From an uncultured Bacilli bacterium (GTDB taxonomy: Bacteria > Bacillota_I > Bacilli_A > RF39 > UBA660): 44,592 bases of DNA. The translations under genes were made by a program, and so were the position numbers. The stretch is taken from contig CALVQH010000004.1 in assembly GCA_944358115.1 (NCBI GenBank), positions 1 to 44,592 on the forward strand, given 5' to 3'. Under the pieces are notes generated by a model. That model was not told where the DNA came from. It saw only the letters and a list, made by a program, of their open reading frames with translations, and made no database searches. Every line of letters begins with the position of its first letter. Positions within the stretch are counted from its first letter, which is position 1. Of this stretch, positions 13,852 through 20,287 are shown piece by piece.

Positions 13852-15633
13852 ATGCTGAAAGATAAATTGAAATTAATTCCGCATTTACCAGGAAGCTATC
13901 AAATGAAAAATAGTGATGGCGTGATTATTTATGTTGGTAAAGCAAAGGATTTATATAAACGCGTTAATTCTTATTTTAATCGACCTCAAACAGGAAAAAC
14001 AGCAAAAATGGTGAGCGAGATTGCAGATTTTTCTTATATTGTTGCTAGTAGTGAATTAGAGGCTTTTCTTTTAGAGTTTAATTTAATTAAACAATATGAT
14101 CCCAAATATAATATTTTACTTAAAGATGATAAGAGTTATCCTTATATTGAATATATTAGTAAGCCTTATCCTAAACTTCAAGTATCTCGTTATTTAAATA
14201 TTCGTAAGAGAGATAAAAAGATGCTTTTTGGACCTTATCCGAATGCTTATGCAGCAAGAAGAATTGTCGAATTAATTAACCGTTTGTATCCTTTAAAAAA
14301 ATGTGATACGATGCCTAAGAAAGTCTGTTTGTATTATCATATCGATGAATGCTTAGGGTATTGTGAAAAAAAGGTGGATCCTGAAAAATTAAAAGAGATG
14401 GAAGCCGAAATATTGAGTTTTTTAAGAGGAAATGCTGATGTTTTAAAAAATAAAATATTAGAAAAAATTAATATGTATAGTGAACAACTTAATTTTGAAA
14501 TGGCTTTGGAGTTAAAAAAGGAACTTCAATATATTAGTATTATTTTAGATAAGCAAAAAATGGAATTACATGATTATGTGAATCGGGATGTTGTTGGTTT
14601 TTACTTTGACAAGGGCTATTTGAGTATTCAGATTCTTTTTCTTAGAAATGGAAGAATGGTTGGAGGACATACCGATATTTTTCCCGTTGTTAGTGATTAT
14701 CAAGATGAACTCGATACTTATCTTATGAATTTTTATAGTAGACATGAAGTACCAAAAGAAGTTTTGTGTCCAAAGGATGTCAATACCAGTATTTTAAGTG
14801 AGATTATGACATCGCATTTTGTTGTCCCTCAAAAGGGTAAGAAAAAGAATTTAGTTGATATGGCAAAAAAGAATGCCAAAATTAATTTAGAAAATGAACT
14901 TGAGATGATTATTCGTGATGAAGAAAAAACTGAGAAAGCAAACGATGAATTAAAAGATCTTTTAGGACTTTCTAAGTTAGATCGCATTGATTTGTTTGAT
15001 AACTCGAATCTTTTTGGCTCTTTTACCGTTAGTTGTATGGTTGTTTTTAAACAAGGTAGACCGGCGAAGAAAGAATATCGAAAATATAAAATTAGTTTAG
15101 ATAAAAATGATGATTATCATACGATGCAAGAGGTTATTTATAGGAGATATTACCGGGCACTTGTAGATAAAACGGAGTTGCCGGATCTGATTATTGTCGA
15201 TGGTGGGATTAATCAAATTAATGCTTGTTTAGAAGTATTAAATAGTTTAAATTTAAATATTCGGGTATGTGGTTTAAGAAAAAATGATAAACATAGAACG
15301 AATGATCTTATTGATTCTCTTGGTTACCGGATAATTCCTCTTGATAAAACTAGTTCTGTTTTTCATTATTTAACTAGAATGCAAGATGAAGTGCATCGCT
15401 ATACGATTAGCTATCACCGAACGATTCGAAGTAAAGGAGCAATTAGTAGTGTTTTAGATAATATTGAGGGAATTGGGGCAAAAAGAAAAAAAGAACTTAT
15501 TAAAACGTTTGGTAGTCTTGCTAAAATTCGGGATGCCAAATTAGAAGAATTAACGGCTATTTTGCCAGAAAATATAGCGATTCGTTTGCAAGAATATTTA
15601 CGCGAAAAAGAAGAAGAGAAAGATCATAAATAG
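13852..15633 (+). CDS. uvrC: excinuclease ABC subunit C
   Basis: This 593-residue UvrC makes both incisions in nucleotide excision repair. It has an N-terminal GIY-YIG nuclease (GVIIYVGKAKDLYKRVNSYF, residues ~24-43), the CLYYHIDECLGYC block, a UVR coiled-coil domain (around 200-235, FEMALELKKELQYI), the RNase H-like endonuclease domain (IDLFDNSNLFGSFTVSCMVVF; DLIIVDGGINQI), and a C-terminal helix-hairpin-helix (IEGIGAKRKKELIKTFGSL). Length is full. GTAGGTGATG serves as ribosome binding site. It leads an operon with the Rnf-like genes 8 bases downstream. Confidence 0.97.
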   Translation: MLKDKLKLIPHLPGSYQMKNSDGVIIYVGKAKDLYKRVNSYFNRPQTGKTAKMVSEIADFSYIVASSELEAFLLEFNLIKQYDPKYNILLKDDKSYPYIEYISKPYPKLQVSRYLNIRKRDKKMLFGPYPNAYAARRIVELINRLYPLKKCDTMPKKVCLYYHIDECLGYCEKKVDPEKLKEMEAEILSFLRGNADVLKNKILEKINMYSEQLNFEMALELKKELQYISIILDKQKMELHDYVNRDVVGFYFDKGYLSIQILFLRNGRMVGGHTDIFPVVSDYQDELDTYLMNFYSRHEVPKEVLCPKDVNTSILSEIMTSHFVVPQKGKKKNLVDMAKKNAKINLENELEMIIRDEEKTEKANDELKDLLGLSKLDRIDLFDNSNLFGSFTVSCMVVFKQGRPAKKEYRKYKISLDKNDDYHTMQEVIYRRYYRALVDKTELPDLIIVDGGINQINACLEVLNSLNLNIRVCGLRKNDKHRTNDLIDSLGYRIIPLDKTSSVFHYLTRMQDEVHRYTISYHRTIRSKGAISSVLDNIEGIGAKRKKELIKTFGSLAKIRDAKLEELTAILPENIAIRLQEYLREKEEEKDHK

Positions 15634-15641
15634 GAGGTTTC

Positions 15642-16769
15642 ATGCAGAAATTAATTACAATCAAAAAAGATGAATCCATTTTGGTTTCCAGTCAAGTAGA
15701 AAGTTTTTTAAAACCAGATTATGTTTATCTTCCTTTGCTAAATGAAGACCATATTTTGGTACGTTTAAAGGATAAAATAAAAATTGGGGATGCCTTAGAA
15801 CAGGCTTCTTCTTATTTAGCACCTGTTTCTGGAGTTGTACGGGGACTAAAAAAAATGACTTCTTTGAAAAACGTTTCTTATTTTTTTGAAATTGAAAATG
15901 ATTTTGAGGAAAGAAGGAAAGAGGAAGCCAAAATTAAACGTAAAATTTCTAAAAAAGAGTTTCTATCCTTGTTTCCCAATCTTGCTCATAAAAAAAATGT
16001 TGTATTAAATGCGATAGATGATGAAGTTTATGTTTCTACAGAGAATTTTTATTTGTTTTTACATTATGAAGAATTTTTAGAATTATTAGATAAAATGTAT
16101 CAATTGTTTTCACTTGAAAATATTTATGTTTGTTTAAGGGCCAGTAGTAGTGAGAATATTACCCAGTTGATGAGTGATTTAGGAATGTATCCGCATATTT
16201 TATTAAAAATGGTTCCTGATACTTATTTATTGGGGCAATCTTCTTTTTTACTTTCTTATTTGGGTCTTCATGAAGAAGATACAGAGGTTATTTTGGCGAG
16301 CAAGCTAAATGATGCTTATTCCTTTCTTGTTCGTGGTAGAACTAAGAGTGATCAACTGATTACCATTAGTGGTAATGTAGTTAAAAAGCCGATGGTTATT
16401 CAAGTAAAGGTAGGCTCTTTGCTGCAAGATATCGTAAATGAGTTAGTTTGTATAACAAGTGATGATGTTTTGTATTTTGCTAATGGACTTATGAGGGGAA
16501 AAGAGATTTGTCTTGATTCTTTTGTGGTCACAGAAGAGTTAAATAGTTTACTGATTATGAAAAGGCAAGAAAAAGAAAAAGCTGGAAAATGTATTCGTTG
16601 TGGTATGTGTCATGATATTTGTCCAGTTCATTTACATCCTTTGCTTTTTTCTAATCCTACTTATTGGGAACAAGCTGAAAATAAATGTATAAAATGTGGG
16701 TTATGCTCATATATATGTCCTGTACATATTCAGTTTTTGTTAGATAGAAAGGAAGAACATCATGAATAA
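15642..16769 (+). CDS. RnfC-like 4Fe-4S protein, divergent
   Basis: This 375-residue protein matches the layout of RnfC (NqrA-like subunit of the Rnf ion-translocating ferredoxin:NAD oxidoreductase). It has an N-terminal barrel-sandwich segment (KIGDALEQASSYLAPVSGVV, residues ~47-66), a core resembling RnfC (VVLNAIDDEVYVSTENFYL for the usual N-x-x-E-x-E-P-Y-L-T-x-D-x-x-L), a SLBB-like part, and two complete C-x2-C-x2-C-x3-C-P clusters (C317/320/323/327 and C349/352/355/359). The glycine-rich GxGGAGFPT loop that binds flavin and NADH in RnfC is absent (residues ~108-118 read LSLFPNLAHKK), and the ECEPY motif is changed to DDEVY. It overlaps the RnfD-like gene by 8 bases. Electron transfer is likely; NADH oxidation is doubtful. 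Confidence 0.75.
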   Translation: MQKLITIKKDESILVSSQVESFLKPDYVYLPLLNEDHILVRLKDKIKIGDALEQASSYLAPVSGVVRGLKKMTSLKNVSYFFEIENDFEERRKEEAKIKRKISKKEFLSLFPNLAHKKNVVLNAIDDEVYVSTENFYLFLHYEEFLELLDKMYQLFSLENIYVCLRASSSENITQLMSDLGMYPHILLKMVPDTYLLGQSSFLLSYLGLHEEDTEVILASKLNDAYSFLVRGRTKSDQLITISGNVVKKPMVIQVKVGSLLQDIVNELVCITSDDVLYFANGLMRGKEICLDSFVVTEELNSLLIMKRQEKEKAGKCIRCGMCHDICPVHLHPLLFSNPTYWEQAENKCIKCGLCSYICPVHIQFLLDRKEEHHE

Positions 16770-17643
16770 TATTCCTTATTTACATTATGAGAAAGATCAA
16801 AAGAGTTTGGTTAAAGCTTATTATATTGCTCTTATACCCATTCTCTTGTTTGGCTTTTATAAGAATGGCATTATGTTGTATCAAAACAATTATGTTTCTT
16901 TTGGCGATGCTTTGATTCCTCTTTATTTTTATTTTATTAGTGCTGTTGTGGGTTTTTTGGTTGCTTTTATTACCAAAGAAAAAAGGAGTCAAATCATTTT
17001 TTATGCTCTGCTTATTTCTTGTAGTGTGTCTATCAATACCAATATGTTTTTATATCCGGTATTGTTATTTGTAGGGCTATTTGTTAGTCTTTATCTAGCT
17101 CATAAATGGCAAATTCATACTCTTTCTCTTACGAGAATTATTCTTATTTTAGCACTTTTTTTAGGAACTTATTCTTATCTTAATGTAAGTGAGAAAATAG
17201 GTGCTTTTAATTATGATTTATGGGACTTGTTTTTTGGTTATGGTAGTGGTGGAATTGCGACAACAAGTTTTTTATTTTTACTTTTTAGTTTTCTTATTTT
17301 GCTTTTTAATCCGTTTTATAAAAAGTGGATTCCTCTTAGTGCAAGTGCTAGTTTTGCCATTTTATTTTTTCTTCTTTTTCCCTTTACAAAAGATGCTTAT
17401 TATTTGGAAAGCATCTTAAATGGAACTGTTTATTTTGGCTTTGTGTTTGTAGCAACCGATTTTTATGTTACGCCTAGTTCTAAAAAGGGAATGATTATTT
17501 ATGGATTATTAATTGGACTTTTATCAGCTATTTTAGGGATCTTTATTCCTATTTATGAAATTAGTTATATTAGTATTTTTCTTGTTAGTTTTATCATTCC
17601 TTTGATTGATCGCTTTTGTTATCAAAAATATTTACATTCTTAA
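16762..17643 (+). CDS. RnfD/NqrB-like membrane protein
   Basis: This 293-residue protein has about nine membrane helices and matches RnfD. FFGYGSGGIATTSFLFLLFS (residues ~156-175) corresponds to the covalent-FMN region (usual G-x-x-G-S-x-G-E-T-S), with Thr available for phosphoester-linked FMN. VFVATDFYVTPSSKKGMIIYGLLIG (residues ~229-253) corresponds to the FFMATDPVTSP-type motif. It is translationally coupled to the RnfC-like gene. RnfA, B, E and G are not present in this window. If the FMN is attached, an RnfG/ApbE-type system should be encoded elsewhere. A terminator follows. Confidence 0.78.
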   Translation: MNNIPYLHYEKDQKSLVKAYYIALIPILLFGFYKNGIMLYQNNYVSFGDALIPLYFYFISAVVGFLVAFITKEKRSQIIFYALLISCSVSINTNMFLYPVLLFVGLFVSLYLAHKWQIHTLSLTRIILILALFLGTYSYLNVSEKIGAFNYDLWDLFFGYGSGGIATTSFLFLLFSFLILLFNPFYKKWIPLSASASFAILFFLLFPFTKDAYYLESILNGTVYFGFVFVATDFYVTPSSKKGMIIYGLLIGLLSAILGIFIPIYEISYISIFLVSFIIPLIDRFCYQKYLHS

Positions 17644-17669: not shown

Positions 17670-17726
17670 ACTCGTAAAAAATTCTTATTCTAGGGATAAG
17701 TAGGTATTTTTACGAGTTTTTCTTTT
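17670..17726 (+). terminator. terminator after the uvrC-RnfCD-like operon
   Basis: ACTCGTAAAAA (17670-17680) pairs perfectly with TTTTTACGAGT (17707-17717), with an inner CTTAT/ATAAG hairpin, and a T-rich tract follows. It lies 20 bases before the adhesin start, so it could also act as a conditional leader for that gene; no other clear promoter for the adhesin was found downstream of it. Confidence 0.75.
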
Positions 17727-17745
17727 GATCTAGATAAGGATACAA

Positions 17746-19761
17746 ATGAAGAAAATACTAAAATTATTTTTATGTTTATTTACTTTTATGATTGCTAGTA
17801 AAACAGTTATGGCAGTCGAACAAAATTATATTTATTTGGGAGATGAAATTCCCAATGTTAGGCTTCATTTAAAGACACCAGATGTAGAAAAAAATAAAAA
17901 GATGTATCAAATTATTAATCGTAATACGGGAGAGCTTGTATACTGTATTGAACCCGGTGTTGTTTTAAAGAATGGGTATTTTAATGCTTATCAGGATATT
18001 AGACAAACTGGGCTTCAATTAACTGATGAGGATTGGCAACAAATGCTTTTAATCGCTTATTTTGGTTATGGCTATGAGGGACGAGAAGATTTAAAATGGT
18101 ATACGATTACCCAGTTTATGATTTGGGATTATTTATTAGAAGATACAGGAGAAATTTATTTTATTAATGATAAGAATGAGAAAATTAATTTGTATCAAGA
18201 AGAAATTAATTTAATCAAAGAAGATATGAAGCATTATTATGATTTGCCTACTTTTATGAGTGCGGATGAAACAATTAAGTATACAGCTAAATTAAATGAG
18301 AAAGTAACACTTGTGGATGAAGCAAATTTGATTGGAAAGTTTTCTGTTAATACCAATCAAGAGTACAGTATTTCTGGTAATGAATTTACGATTTCTTTTA
18401 CGACACCAGGAACTCATTATGTTTATTTTTGGAAAGATTCCGGGATGAGAAATATGGCTAAAATATTTTGCAGTCCTTCTAGCCAAACCGTTATGAATCG
18501 TGGTATTTTAGATATTCCGGTGGCTACGATTCAGTTTGATATTCCCAATCCTACTTTTACTTTCACTAAGAAAAGTAGTGGAAAATCTTCTTTATCTTTA
18601 GCGGGTGCTAAATATGGAATTTTTTATGAAAATGGCTATTTATATAAAGAATTTACAACGGATGAGGAAGGAAGGGCTGAGTTTTTAATTGATCTTGGCA
18701 GTTGGTATTTACAAGAATTAGAGGCTCCTTATGGTTATGAACTTAATCCCGAGAAGATTTATTTTGAAGTGATCGATGGGGATGTTACTTTAGAAGGAGA
18801 AGACTCTCTTATTTATAAAAGAATTATGTTAGAAAAATATTTAGAACATATTGATGGCTCTTTATCACTAGAAAAAAATGCTCAATTTTCAGTATATGAT
18901 GCAAAGACGGAAGAACTTGTTACTTCTTTTACAACTGATGAATATGGAAAATATGAACTTACTCTTCCTTATGGTGAGTATATATTAAAACAAACAGCTT
19001 CTACGGAAGGGTACAAGCTTGCTTCTGATATTTTTCTTACTATTGATGATGAAACGGAAGATTTAACAATTCTGTCCGTATTAAATCCAGAAATTAAAGG
19101 AAGTTTAATTATTAATAAAATCGATCAAGATAGTGAGGAACTGATTTTAGAAGAAGCATCTTTTCAAATTTGGGATGTTGTTCACGAGCGTTTTTTAACA
19201 ATTGATGGTGAAGATACATTTCAAACGATCGAAGGAAAACTTTATATTGAGAATATTCCTTATGGTAGCTATGAACTAGTAGAAGTAGAAGCACCAGAGG
19301 GTTATCAGATTTCTTTCCAACGTTATGCTTTTAGTGTTACCGAAGATGAGGAAGAAATTACGATTAATGTTACTAACGAGCTTAAAAAAGGAACACTTGT
19401 GATTGAAAAGGTTGATGAAAATTTACAGCCATTAGAGGGAGTTTTGTTTGGCTTATATGATGATTGTGGGAATTTAATGGAAACATACTACACTGATAAG
19501 GATGGTAAAATAATGATTGAAAACTTATTAGAAGGTACTTATTTTATTGAAGAATTAGAGACAGTTTCCGGTTATGAGCGGTTAGAAGGACTTCTTTCTG
19601 TTGAAGTGAAGGCAGATACAGTTAATACCTTTAAAGTAACTAATCGTTTACAAATTGAAGTTCCAAAAACGGGAACCAATGAATTTTTACTTACCATATT
19701 ATTTGCTTCTTTGTGTTTAATTGTAGGGGCATTTATTTGTAATTATGATCAGGATCATTAA
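17746..19761 (+). CDS. sortase-anchored surface adhesin with thioester domain and SpaA/Cna-B repeats
   Basis: This 671-residue protein has a signal peptide (residues 1-23, cleavage after VMA), then a thioester (TQXA-type) domain. C67 in VYCIEPG and Q123 in TITQFMIWDYL are the expected Cys-Gln pair, which can attach covalently to host or surface amines. Three to four SpaA/Cna-B-like repeats follow, each with a K near its start and an E in a Y-x-x-x-E-x-x-x-P/S-x-GY motif (ELEAPYGYEL, QTASTEGYKL, EVEAPEGYQI, ELETVSGYERL), suited to isopeptide bonds. The sorting signal is VPKTG (639-643) plus a hydrophobic helix; the tail is acidic (NYDQDH) instead of the usual basic cluster. The sortase gene overlaps its 3' end by 17 bases. 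It is probably a monomeric adhesin or tip protein, since no major pilin is adjacent. Confidence 0.85.
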   Translation: MKKILKLFLCLFTFMIASKTVMAVEQNYIYLGDEIPNVRLHLKTPDVEKNKKMYQIINRNTGELVYCIEPGVVLKNGYFNAYQDIRQTGLQLTDEDWQQMLLIAYFGYGYEGREDLKWYTITQFMIWDYLLEDTGEIYFINDKNEKINLYQEEINLIKEDMKHYYDLPTFMSADETIKYTAKLNEKVTLVDEANLIGKFSVNTNQEYSISGNEFTISFTTPGTHYVYFWKDSGMRNMAKIFCSPSSQTVMNRGILDIPVATIQFDIPNPTFTFTKKSSGKSSLSLAGAKYGIFYENGYLYKEFTTDEEGRAEFLIDLGSWYLQELEAPYGYELNPEKIYFEVIDGDVTLEGEDSLIYKRIMLEKYLEHIDGSLSLEKNAQFSVYDAKTEELVTSFTTDEYGKYELTLPYGEYILKQTASTEGYKLASDIFLTIDDETEDLTILSVLNPEIKGSLIINKIDQDSEELILEEASFQIWDVVHERFLTIDGEDTFQTIEGKLYIENIPYGSYELVEVEAPEGYQISFQRYAFSVTEDEEEITINVTNELKKGTLVIEKVDENLQPLEGVLFGLYDDCGNLMETYYTDKDGKIMIENLLEGTYFIEELETVSGYERLEGLLSVEVKADTVNTFKVTNRLQIEVPKTGTNEFLLTILFASLCLIVGAFICNYDQDH

Positions 19762-20287
19762 AATTTCAGGTATTCTTTTGGTGCTTTTAGGAGTACTCAT
19801 TCCTATTACTACTTTTACTAAATATAAAGTAGAAGAATATCGATATGAGGTTGTGATGAATGAAAAAATAGAAAACAATGATTATTATGCCTTACTTGAA
19901 ATTGATGCGATTGATTTACGAAGAGAAATTTATGAAGTAGATAGTAAATATAATCAAGTTAATCAAAATATTTTGCTACATGAGGCAAGTGTGATGCCAA
20001 CAGATGAAGGTAATAGTCATGTTATTTTAGCGGCTCATTCGGGTAATGGTGCTCATGCTTATTTTAAAGATCTTTATTTGTTAAAGATAAGTGATACGAT
20101 TAAGTTTTATTATCAAGGAAAGATTTGGTATTATGAAATTGTTGATATTGAATATCAAGAGAAAACGGGTATCTTATATTTAAGAGAAGATTTTGAGCAA
20201 ATGATTACTTTAATTACTTGTACAAAAGGAAATCGTGATGCACAAACGATCTATTATGGTGTTTTAAAAGACGTAAAAAGCTTATAA
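19745..20287 (+). CDS. sortase (adhesin-linked)
   Basis: This 180-residue membrane-anchored transpeptidase has one N-terminal helix (residues ~5-25). Catalytic His98 is in ILAAHSG and Cys159 in TLITCTKG. The Arg usually 8-9 residues after Cys, in the strand before the closing GV, is not obvious: the aligned position reads Gln168 (AQTIYYGV), and the nearest Arg is R164. The overlap with the adhesin gene implies that the VPKTG protein is its substrate. The class cannot be settled by eye; the short single-helix form resembles class D/A-type enzymes. A terminator follows. Confidence 0.88.
   Translation: MIRIIKISGILLVLLGVLIPITTFTKYKVEEYRYEVVMNEKIENNDYYALLEIDAIDLRREIYEVDSKYNQVNQNILLHEASVMPTDEGNSHVILAAHSGNGAHAYFKDLYLLKISDTIKFYYQGKIWYYEIVDIEYQEKTGILYLREDFEQMITLITCTKGNRDAQTIYYGVLKDVKSL

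Follow-up and report, generated by a model that had tools for sequence, protein, structure and literature searches.

The Rnf complex is seen as an ancient pump of six subunits that function only in concert. What, then, is to be made of a locus in which RnfC and RnfD stand alone? Such a locus lies within the window (the whole 44,592-nucleotide stretch analysed here, from the genome of an uncultured Bacilli bacterium), whose + strand carries two intact open reading frames, one RnfC-like (375 amino acids) and one RnfD-like (293 amino acids). The original prediction, drawn from the DNA letters, described them as a two-gene module without RnfA, B, E and G, possibly an electron-transfer unit of iron-sulfur and flavin cofactors.

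Identity and setting of the pair

Profile and structure comparisons uphold the assignment of both genes (table 1). The RnfC-like protein matches TIGR01945 with 102.5 bits (E 1.9e-29) and does not reach the curated cut-off of 246 bits, so that by this model it is an RnfC homologue but not a member of the family. Its best PDB match is 7zc6_C, the RnfC of Clostridium tetanomorphum, and an AF2 model built on an alignment of relatives (pLDDT 91.5) superposes on solved RnfC with Foldseek TM scores of 0.84-0.85. The RnfD-like protein scores 87.9 bits against PF03116 (NQR2_RnfD_RnfE), above the gathering cut-off of 27.7, and 41.2 bits against TIGR01946, below the curated cut-off of 207 bits. Its model, obtained in the same manner (pLDDT 92.3), resembles RnfD/NqrB (TM 0.72-0.78) and, with Foldseek probabilities up to 0.99 and TM of about 0.5, the UT-B and Rh/Amt proteins. 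No domain besides PF03116 was found above cut-off in its 293 residues, and a fused NAD-binding domain (PF00175) is absent.

Table 1. Features of the RnfC-like/RnfD-like locus (positions in the window)
Feature	Position	Strand	Description	Basis
uvrC	13852..15633	+	Upstream neighbour, outside the unit	Pfam UvrC domains
AGGAGG ribosome-binding site of RnfC-like gene	15632..15637	+	Overlaps the uvrC stop	Sequence reading
RnfC-like gene	15642..16769	+	375 aa; barrel-sandwich, NuoF-like and SLBB domains, C-terminal 2x[4Fe-4S] domain	TIGR01945, AF2, Foldseek
Deletion site of FMN/NADH loop	15971..15992	+	13-residue GxGGxxFPTYxKY loop missing between FPN and LAH	Aligned to the family's canonical RnfC
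NAIDDEVY	16008..16031	+	Replaces canonical N.VECEPY	Alignment and sequence reading
First 4Fe-4S motif	16590..16622	+	Cys317, 320, 323, 327	Invariant in 80/80 class IV loci; Pfam Fer4 in 35/35
Second 4Fe-4S motif	16686..16718	+	Cys349, 352, 355, 359	Invariant in 80/80 class IV loci
RnfD-like gene	16762..17643	+	293 aa; membrane protein, predicted to be multi-helix and urea-transporter-like	PF03116, AF2, Foldseek
Tyr33-Lys34-Asn35	16858..16866	+	Conserved residues at the outer helix 1 end	Lys in 77/80 class IV rows
Deletion site of segment with FMN-bearing threonine	17170..17193	+	7zc6 Thr153 segment missing; Glu144 next	Alignment columns
GSGGIATTS	17242..17268	+	Equivalent of VGGCIGETS (7zc6_D residues 179-187); Glu185 -> Thr167	Alignments to 7zc6_D
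Asp233 (FVATD)	17458..17460	+	Equivalent of riboflavin-contact Asp248	Kept in the window; 27/80 class IV rows
Intrinsic-terminator-like hairpin and T-run	17671..17728	+	Perfect 10-bp stem, 17671-17680/17707-17716	Fold -14.8 kcal/mol, z -2.8

The start of the RnfD-like gene lies inside the 3' end of its partner (8-nt overlap), and in related loci too the two genes overlap or nearly so. Downstream, the perfect hairpin with its T-run indicates that the transcript probably ends ahead of the SpaA gene. Between the pair and dnaG, positions 17746-20287 of the window hold genes for a thioester-domain/SpaA surface protein and a sortase, and relatives of the thioester/SpaA proteins occupy the same place in 28 related loci. 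On the 5' side, the RnfC-like gene begins 8 bases past uvrC, with which cotranscription had been proposed. Spacing makes this plausible, but uvrC adjoins the RnfC-like gene in just 44 of the 80 related loci, and the pair lies elsewhere in about half of the genomes. A functional tie to uvrC is likewise weak: the order trx-yigZ-uvrC-C-D-dnaG-rpoD is generally syntenic, and the pair is also found after nfo or in other places. Nine loci of neighbour cluster 15 (L055, L057, L066, L108 and others) have the pair 3' of an endonuclease-IV-like (nfo) gene instead of uvrC; this neighbour, named by eye from its sequence, is again a DNA-repair gene, which may be coincidence. The neighbourhoods of related loci show no third gene in linkage with the pair, nor any acceptor gene travelling with it.

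The remaining Rnf parts were sought throughout the window's genome (1.31 Mb, 93.5% complete; a draft, like all genomes compared). The RnfD-like gene is its only PF03116 gene, and searches of this genome found no RnfA/RnfE (PF02508), RnfB (PF04060), FMN_bind/RnfG (PF04205, also missing from 9 congeners) or ApbE, in keeping with the predicted absence of RnfA, B, E and G. A complete rnf operon elsewhere, which would have made the pair a duplicate, is thus rejected.

Rnf-derived loci of the family

To place the pair we compared 241 genomes sampled from the order, those listed all belonging to one family; they are small and mostly gut-derived. PF03116 occurs in 124 of them, each with an RnfC-like match as well. 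By these searches 10 further genomes have RnfC without RnfD, although in two of them (L184 and L185) an RnfD-like gene proved adjacent to RnfC after all, leaving eight true cases. A 2144-residue RnfD fusion in L184/L202 is only apparent, produced by a stretch of masked N.

Five classes can be distinguished, the labels of loci seen only in genome searches being based on E-values and frame lengths. Class I (18 genomes) has RnfC, a fused RnfD-RnfG, RnfE, RnfA and a very short RnfB, with ApbE in 16, and is the only class in which RnfB was detected. Class II (5 genomes) keeps RnfC and the D-G fusion with ApbE, without A, E or B. Class III, with about 21 genomes, still has the RnfC loop but neither the RnfD threonine nor the G domain. 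Class IV (about 82 of the 241 genomes, the window's included) has lost both the loop and the threonine, and none of its 82 genomes yielded RnfA/RnfE. Class V (8 genomes) consists of an RnfC-like protein of 271-281 residues without Fe-S domain and without RnfD, mostly still beside uvrC. By their sequences, the relatives make up a graded loss of Rnf, running from class I through II, III and IV to V.

Some of these loci have features of their own. RnfB of the family's full Rnf is cut to about 84-109 residues, with the PF04060 cluster present and the polyferredoxin part missing, and RnfG is fused to RnfD; the short-RnfB loci are L152 (5444-5713, -), L154 and L172-L175. The class II loci (L159, L160, L161, L162 and L163) could possibly encode a one-way exporter of electrons from NADH to the outside. 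The class V loci are L176 (5809-6654, -), L177 (6202-7047, +), L178, L179, L180 (6085-6900, -), L181 (6333-7172, +), L182 and L183; the three class V proteins searched (L177, L180, L181) match no Pfam family.

In a tree of RnfC computed with the loop columns left out, class IV forms one clade (82 rows, support 100) nested among the other classes. The clade is old, its stem measuring 0.68 changes per site. In L148, placed outside the main class IV clade, the loop was lost separately, a second and independent event. Class V attaches to class IV as one group with long branches. Class IV is essentially a single clade and the commonest Rnf-derived form of the family. Among 296 genomes sampled across the taxonomic class, from about 22 families, its type of RnfD turned up in that family only, with E below 1e-70 where other families gave about 1e-30 or weaker. 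Of named organisms, Candidatus Caccenecus avistercoris is the nearest relative.

Column counts over 80 non-identical class IV loci, together with the other classes, establish what was lost and what was kept. Alignment with canonical RnfC confirms the deletion of the loop first noticed as a missing GxGGAGFPT, as well as DDEVY at the ECEPY position. The loop is intact in 44/44 rows of classes I-III and missing in 80/80 of class IV. Half of the RnfC FMN site (N..DDEPY) persists in many relatives; FMN binding by the RnfC-like protein would thus be weakened, but residual binding may occur. The two 4Fe-4S motifs are present as described: all eight cysteines are invariant in the 124/124 rows that have RnfD, and class IV keeps both CxxCxxCxxxCP spacings in 80/80 rows, in a protein that elsewhere averages 33% identity.

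The RnfD-like protein departs further from what had been proposed. In solved RnfD (7zc6) FMN is bound to Thr153 (PMC9588780). This column is threonine in 23/23 class I/II rows, whereas the window, like 80/80 rows of class IV, has a gap there; the FMN-contact Glu185 is glutamate in the same 23/23 and in 0/80. GSGGIATTS, which had been taken for a retained FMN motif, is instead the equivalent of a contact segment whose glutamate has become threonine, the threonine-bearing segment itself being deleted. FVATD fares better in part, as the window does keep the riboflavin-contact aspartate, but only 27/80 relatives share it. The riboflavin-contact Asn124 is kept in 70/80 class IV rows, the window not being among those that have it, and Gly237 of the flavin pocket in 4/80. 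ApbE tracks the RnfD threonine motif (21/23 class I and II genomes versus 1/82 of class IV). The description as an "iron-sulfur plus flavin" pair is therefore unsupported: with the covalent FMN site gone and no ApbE in the genome, any flavin in the pair would have to be non-covalent, and its pocket is conserved only in part.

All 80 class IV loci share these losses as a conserved minimal two-gene unit, and the decay of reading frames that might have been expected in relatives was looked for and not found. The closest class IV pairs (L107/L110 and L039/L072) give dN/dS of about 0.13-0.15, and the window against L072 about 0.2; several distant pairs reach about 0.4, with synonymous sites near saturation. 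Within one genus of class V the ratio is about 0.07-0.1. Nearly all genomes that keep both genes are free of reported internal stops. The class IV and V genes are not pseudogenes and evolve under purifying selection, for class V where it was measurable. The correlation of RnfC and RnfD distances, uvrC accounted for, is only 0.23 and was therefore not counted as a sign of contact between the two proteins.

What the pair may do

In Rnf, the two clusters of RnfC bridge the riboflavin of RnfD and the FMN of RnfC (PMC12174285, PMC9588780), and the N-terminal arm of RnfD is buried in RnfC (PMC9588780). In this family, the Fe-S domain is absent from 8/8 RnfC-like proteins without RnfD; clusters persist only in company with RnfD, and their task is thereby linked to that protein. 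Since class V forms one clade, this joint loss may represent only one or two evolutionary events. In class IV, whatever lies outside the clusters and the RnfD fold has been damaged or lost, and an electron relay is the favoured interpretation. We therefore put forward, with somewhat less than even confidence, that the pair could be a reduced two-subunit derivative of Rnf acting as a membrane-docked relay that dispenses with NAD(H), with covalent FMN and with the A/E pump; a new redox role in these bacteria is probable on the same comparisons. As RnfC does in Rnf, the RnfC-like protein would dock to its membrane partner from the cytoplasmic side. A cytosolic carrier of low potential, in the simplest case ferredoxin reduced by pyruvate:ferredoxin oxidoreductase (PFOR), would exchange electrons with the two clusters. 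The electrons would travel to or from a site in the cytoplasmic half of that partner, the position of the non-covalent riboflavin in Rnf. Neither a reaction with NAD(H) through the RnfC-like protein nor ion pumping through RnfA/E would take place; the earlier suggestion that something other than NAD is reduced would fit the loss of the RnfC loop. Against a flavin in such a relay speaks the poor conservation of the rest of the RnfD pocket (Glu185, Gly237, Asp248), and the flavin is accordingly only putative.

PFOR, a ferredoxin reducer, is encoded in 226/241 genomes, including the window's, so that an electron donor would be available; being near-universal, it is uninformative as a clue to the pair. 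A link to [FeFe]-hydrogenase was also rejected: the enzyme is found in none of the window's genus, and its occurrence in 30/82 class IV genomes versus 22/107 without the pair has a nominal p of 0.02 that ignores phylogeny. The window's genome and all 10 congeners have PFOR, but searches in them turned up neither an [FeFe]-hydrogenase nor an Rnf pump nor ApbE.

The main rival of the relay is a redox-gated transporter, given the urea-transporter-like fold of RnfD and its conserved polar residues. Here the RnfD-like protein would conduct an ion or small solute, the [4Fe-4S] clusters of its partner would sense the cytosolic redox state and gate it, and no electrons would cross or leave. Every flavin-attachment feature has disappeared while the transporter fold persists, as the UT-B and Rh/Amt matches attest; Tyr33, Lys34, Asn35, Glu144, Asp155 and Lys187 are near-invariant charged or polar residues; and the clusters disappear along with RnfD. 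Yet pore and substrate are hypothetical, the likeness to urea transporters is inherited from RnfD itself, and we know of no tested example of redox-gated transport of this kind. We consider the transporter rather unlikely. Slightly less likely still is a fuller history in which a respiratory pump would have given rise to such a transporter with a flavin-free RnfD-like protein, the RnfC core being later kept in some RnfD-less lineages for a non-redox role.

A role outside redox chemistry could also be envisaged for the pair itself, the RnfC-like protein serving for docking or structure as NqrA does in Nqr and the clusters merely stabilising the fold. NqrA is indeed a cofactor-free RnfC homologue (PMC12174285), and eight genomes keep the cluster-less protein without RnfD, under purifying selection where measurable, which implies that the core has some role beyond redox. 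The retention of all eight ligands in every lineage that keeps RnfD, with spacings unchanged in a protein so divergent elsewhere, makes this improbable for the pair. We judge it a shade more improbable that RnfC and RnfD, just two of six subunits, are what can still be recognised of a larger Rnf-like machine, its other members having diverged beyond detection or been replaced. The congener genomes are drafts, but RnfA/E, RnfB and FMN_bind were found neither in the window's genome nor in 9 congeners, RnfA/E and RnfB are readily detected in the family's own 18 class I genomes, and the neighbourhoods offer no third gene. Finally, although graded loss among relatives and reduced genomes might suggest a decaying, functionless leftover of an rnf operon, this is scarcely tenable for two genes kept with invariant cysteines, dN/dS well below 1 and almost no reported stops in about 82/241 genomes of an old clade.

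Relation to known systems

One bacterial family holds all stages of Rnf disassembly side by side, and class IV is the last redox-capable stage (RnfC and RnfD, no covalent flavin), the commonest and under selection. That the commonest form is selected without covalent flavin suggests that the function of RnfC-RnfD is separable from ion pumping and NAD(H). Current mechanisms of Rnf and Nqr differ on whether RnfD conducts electrons or forms a channel (PMC12174285); the pair provides a small, testable two-protein system in which to put that question.

In the open-access literature, to which the search was confined, we found no description of a unit of RnfC and RnfD only. According to the available part of a 2020 survey of Tenericutes, Izemoplasmatales and a wastewater group have preserved Rnf, and that part makes no mention of the two-gene form (PMC7301438). 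The closest analogues are the two-subunit NQR/RNF-like systems (PMC8238504, PMC11334425), which are likewise minimal units built on an RnfD/NqrB domain minus the flavinylation threonine, and in which a non-covalent flavin is thought to be used (PMC11334425). These systems also comprise an NAD-binding domain (PF00175) by fusion, an FMN-bind subunit outside the cytosol and ApbE, none of which the pair has; here the RnfD-like protein is partnered by an RnfC-type 2x[4Fe-4S] protein, with no flavinylated subunit. In Na+-NQR, NqrA is an RnfC homologue minus the NAD/FMN site and NqrB has the RnfD fold, but NqrA has lost its Fe-S clusters too and operates as one of six subunits, and NqrB keeps its covalent FMN. 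The cobalamin reductase PduS is an RnfC-related soluble protein working outside an Rnf complex. Its function is that of a microcompartment corrin reductase (PMC2982820); unlike the RnfC-like protein of the pair, it is not known to have a membrane partner. With the Rnf complex itself (RnfABCDGE, the Na+/H+-translocating ferredoxin:NAD+ oxidoreductase) the pair shares the RnfC and RnfD folds, the C-D order and the two [4Fe-4S] motifs, and in the phylogeny it falls inside the family's Rnf, while being without A, B, E, G, ApbE, the FMN/NADH loop of RnfC and the FMN threonine of RnfD. By the features tested, the pair of the window is a derivative of the Rnf complex and not itself an Rnf complex.
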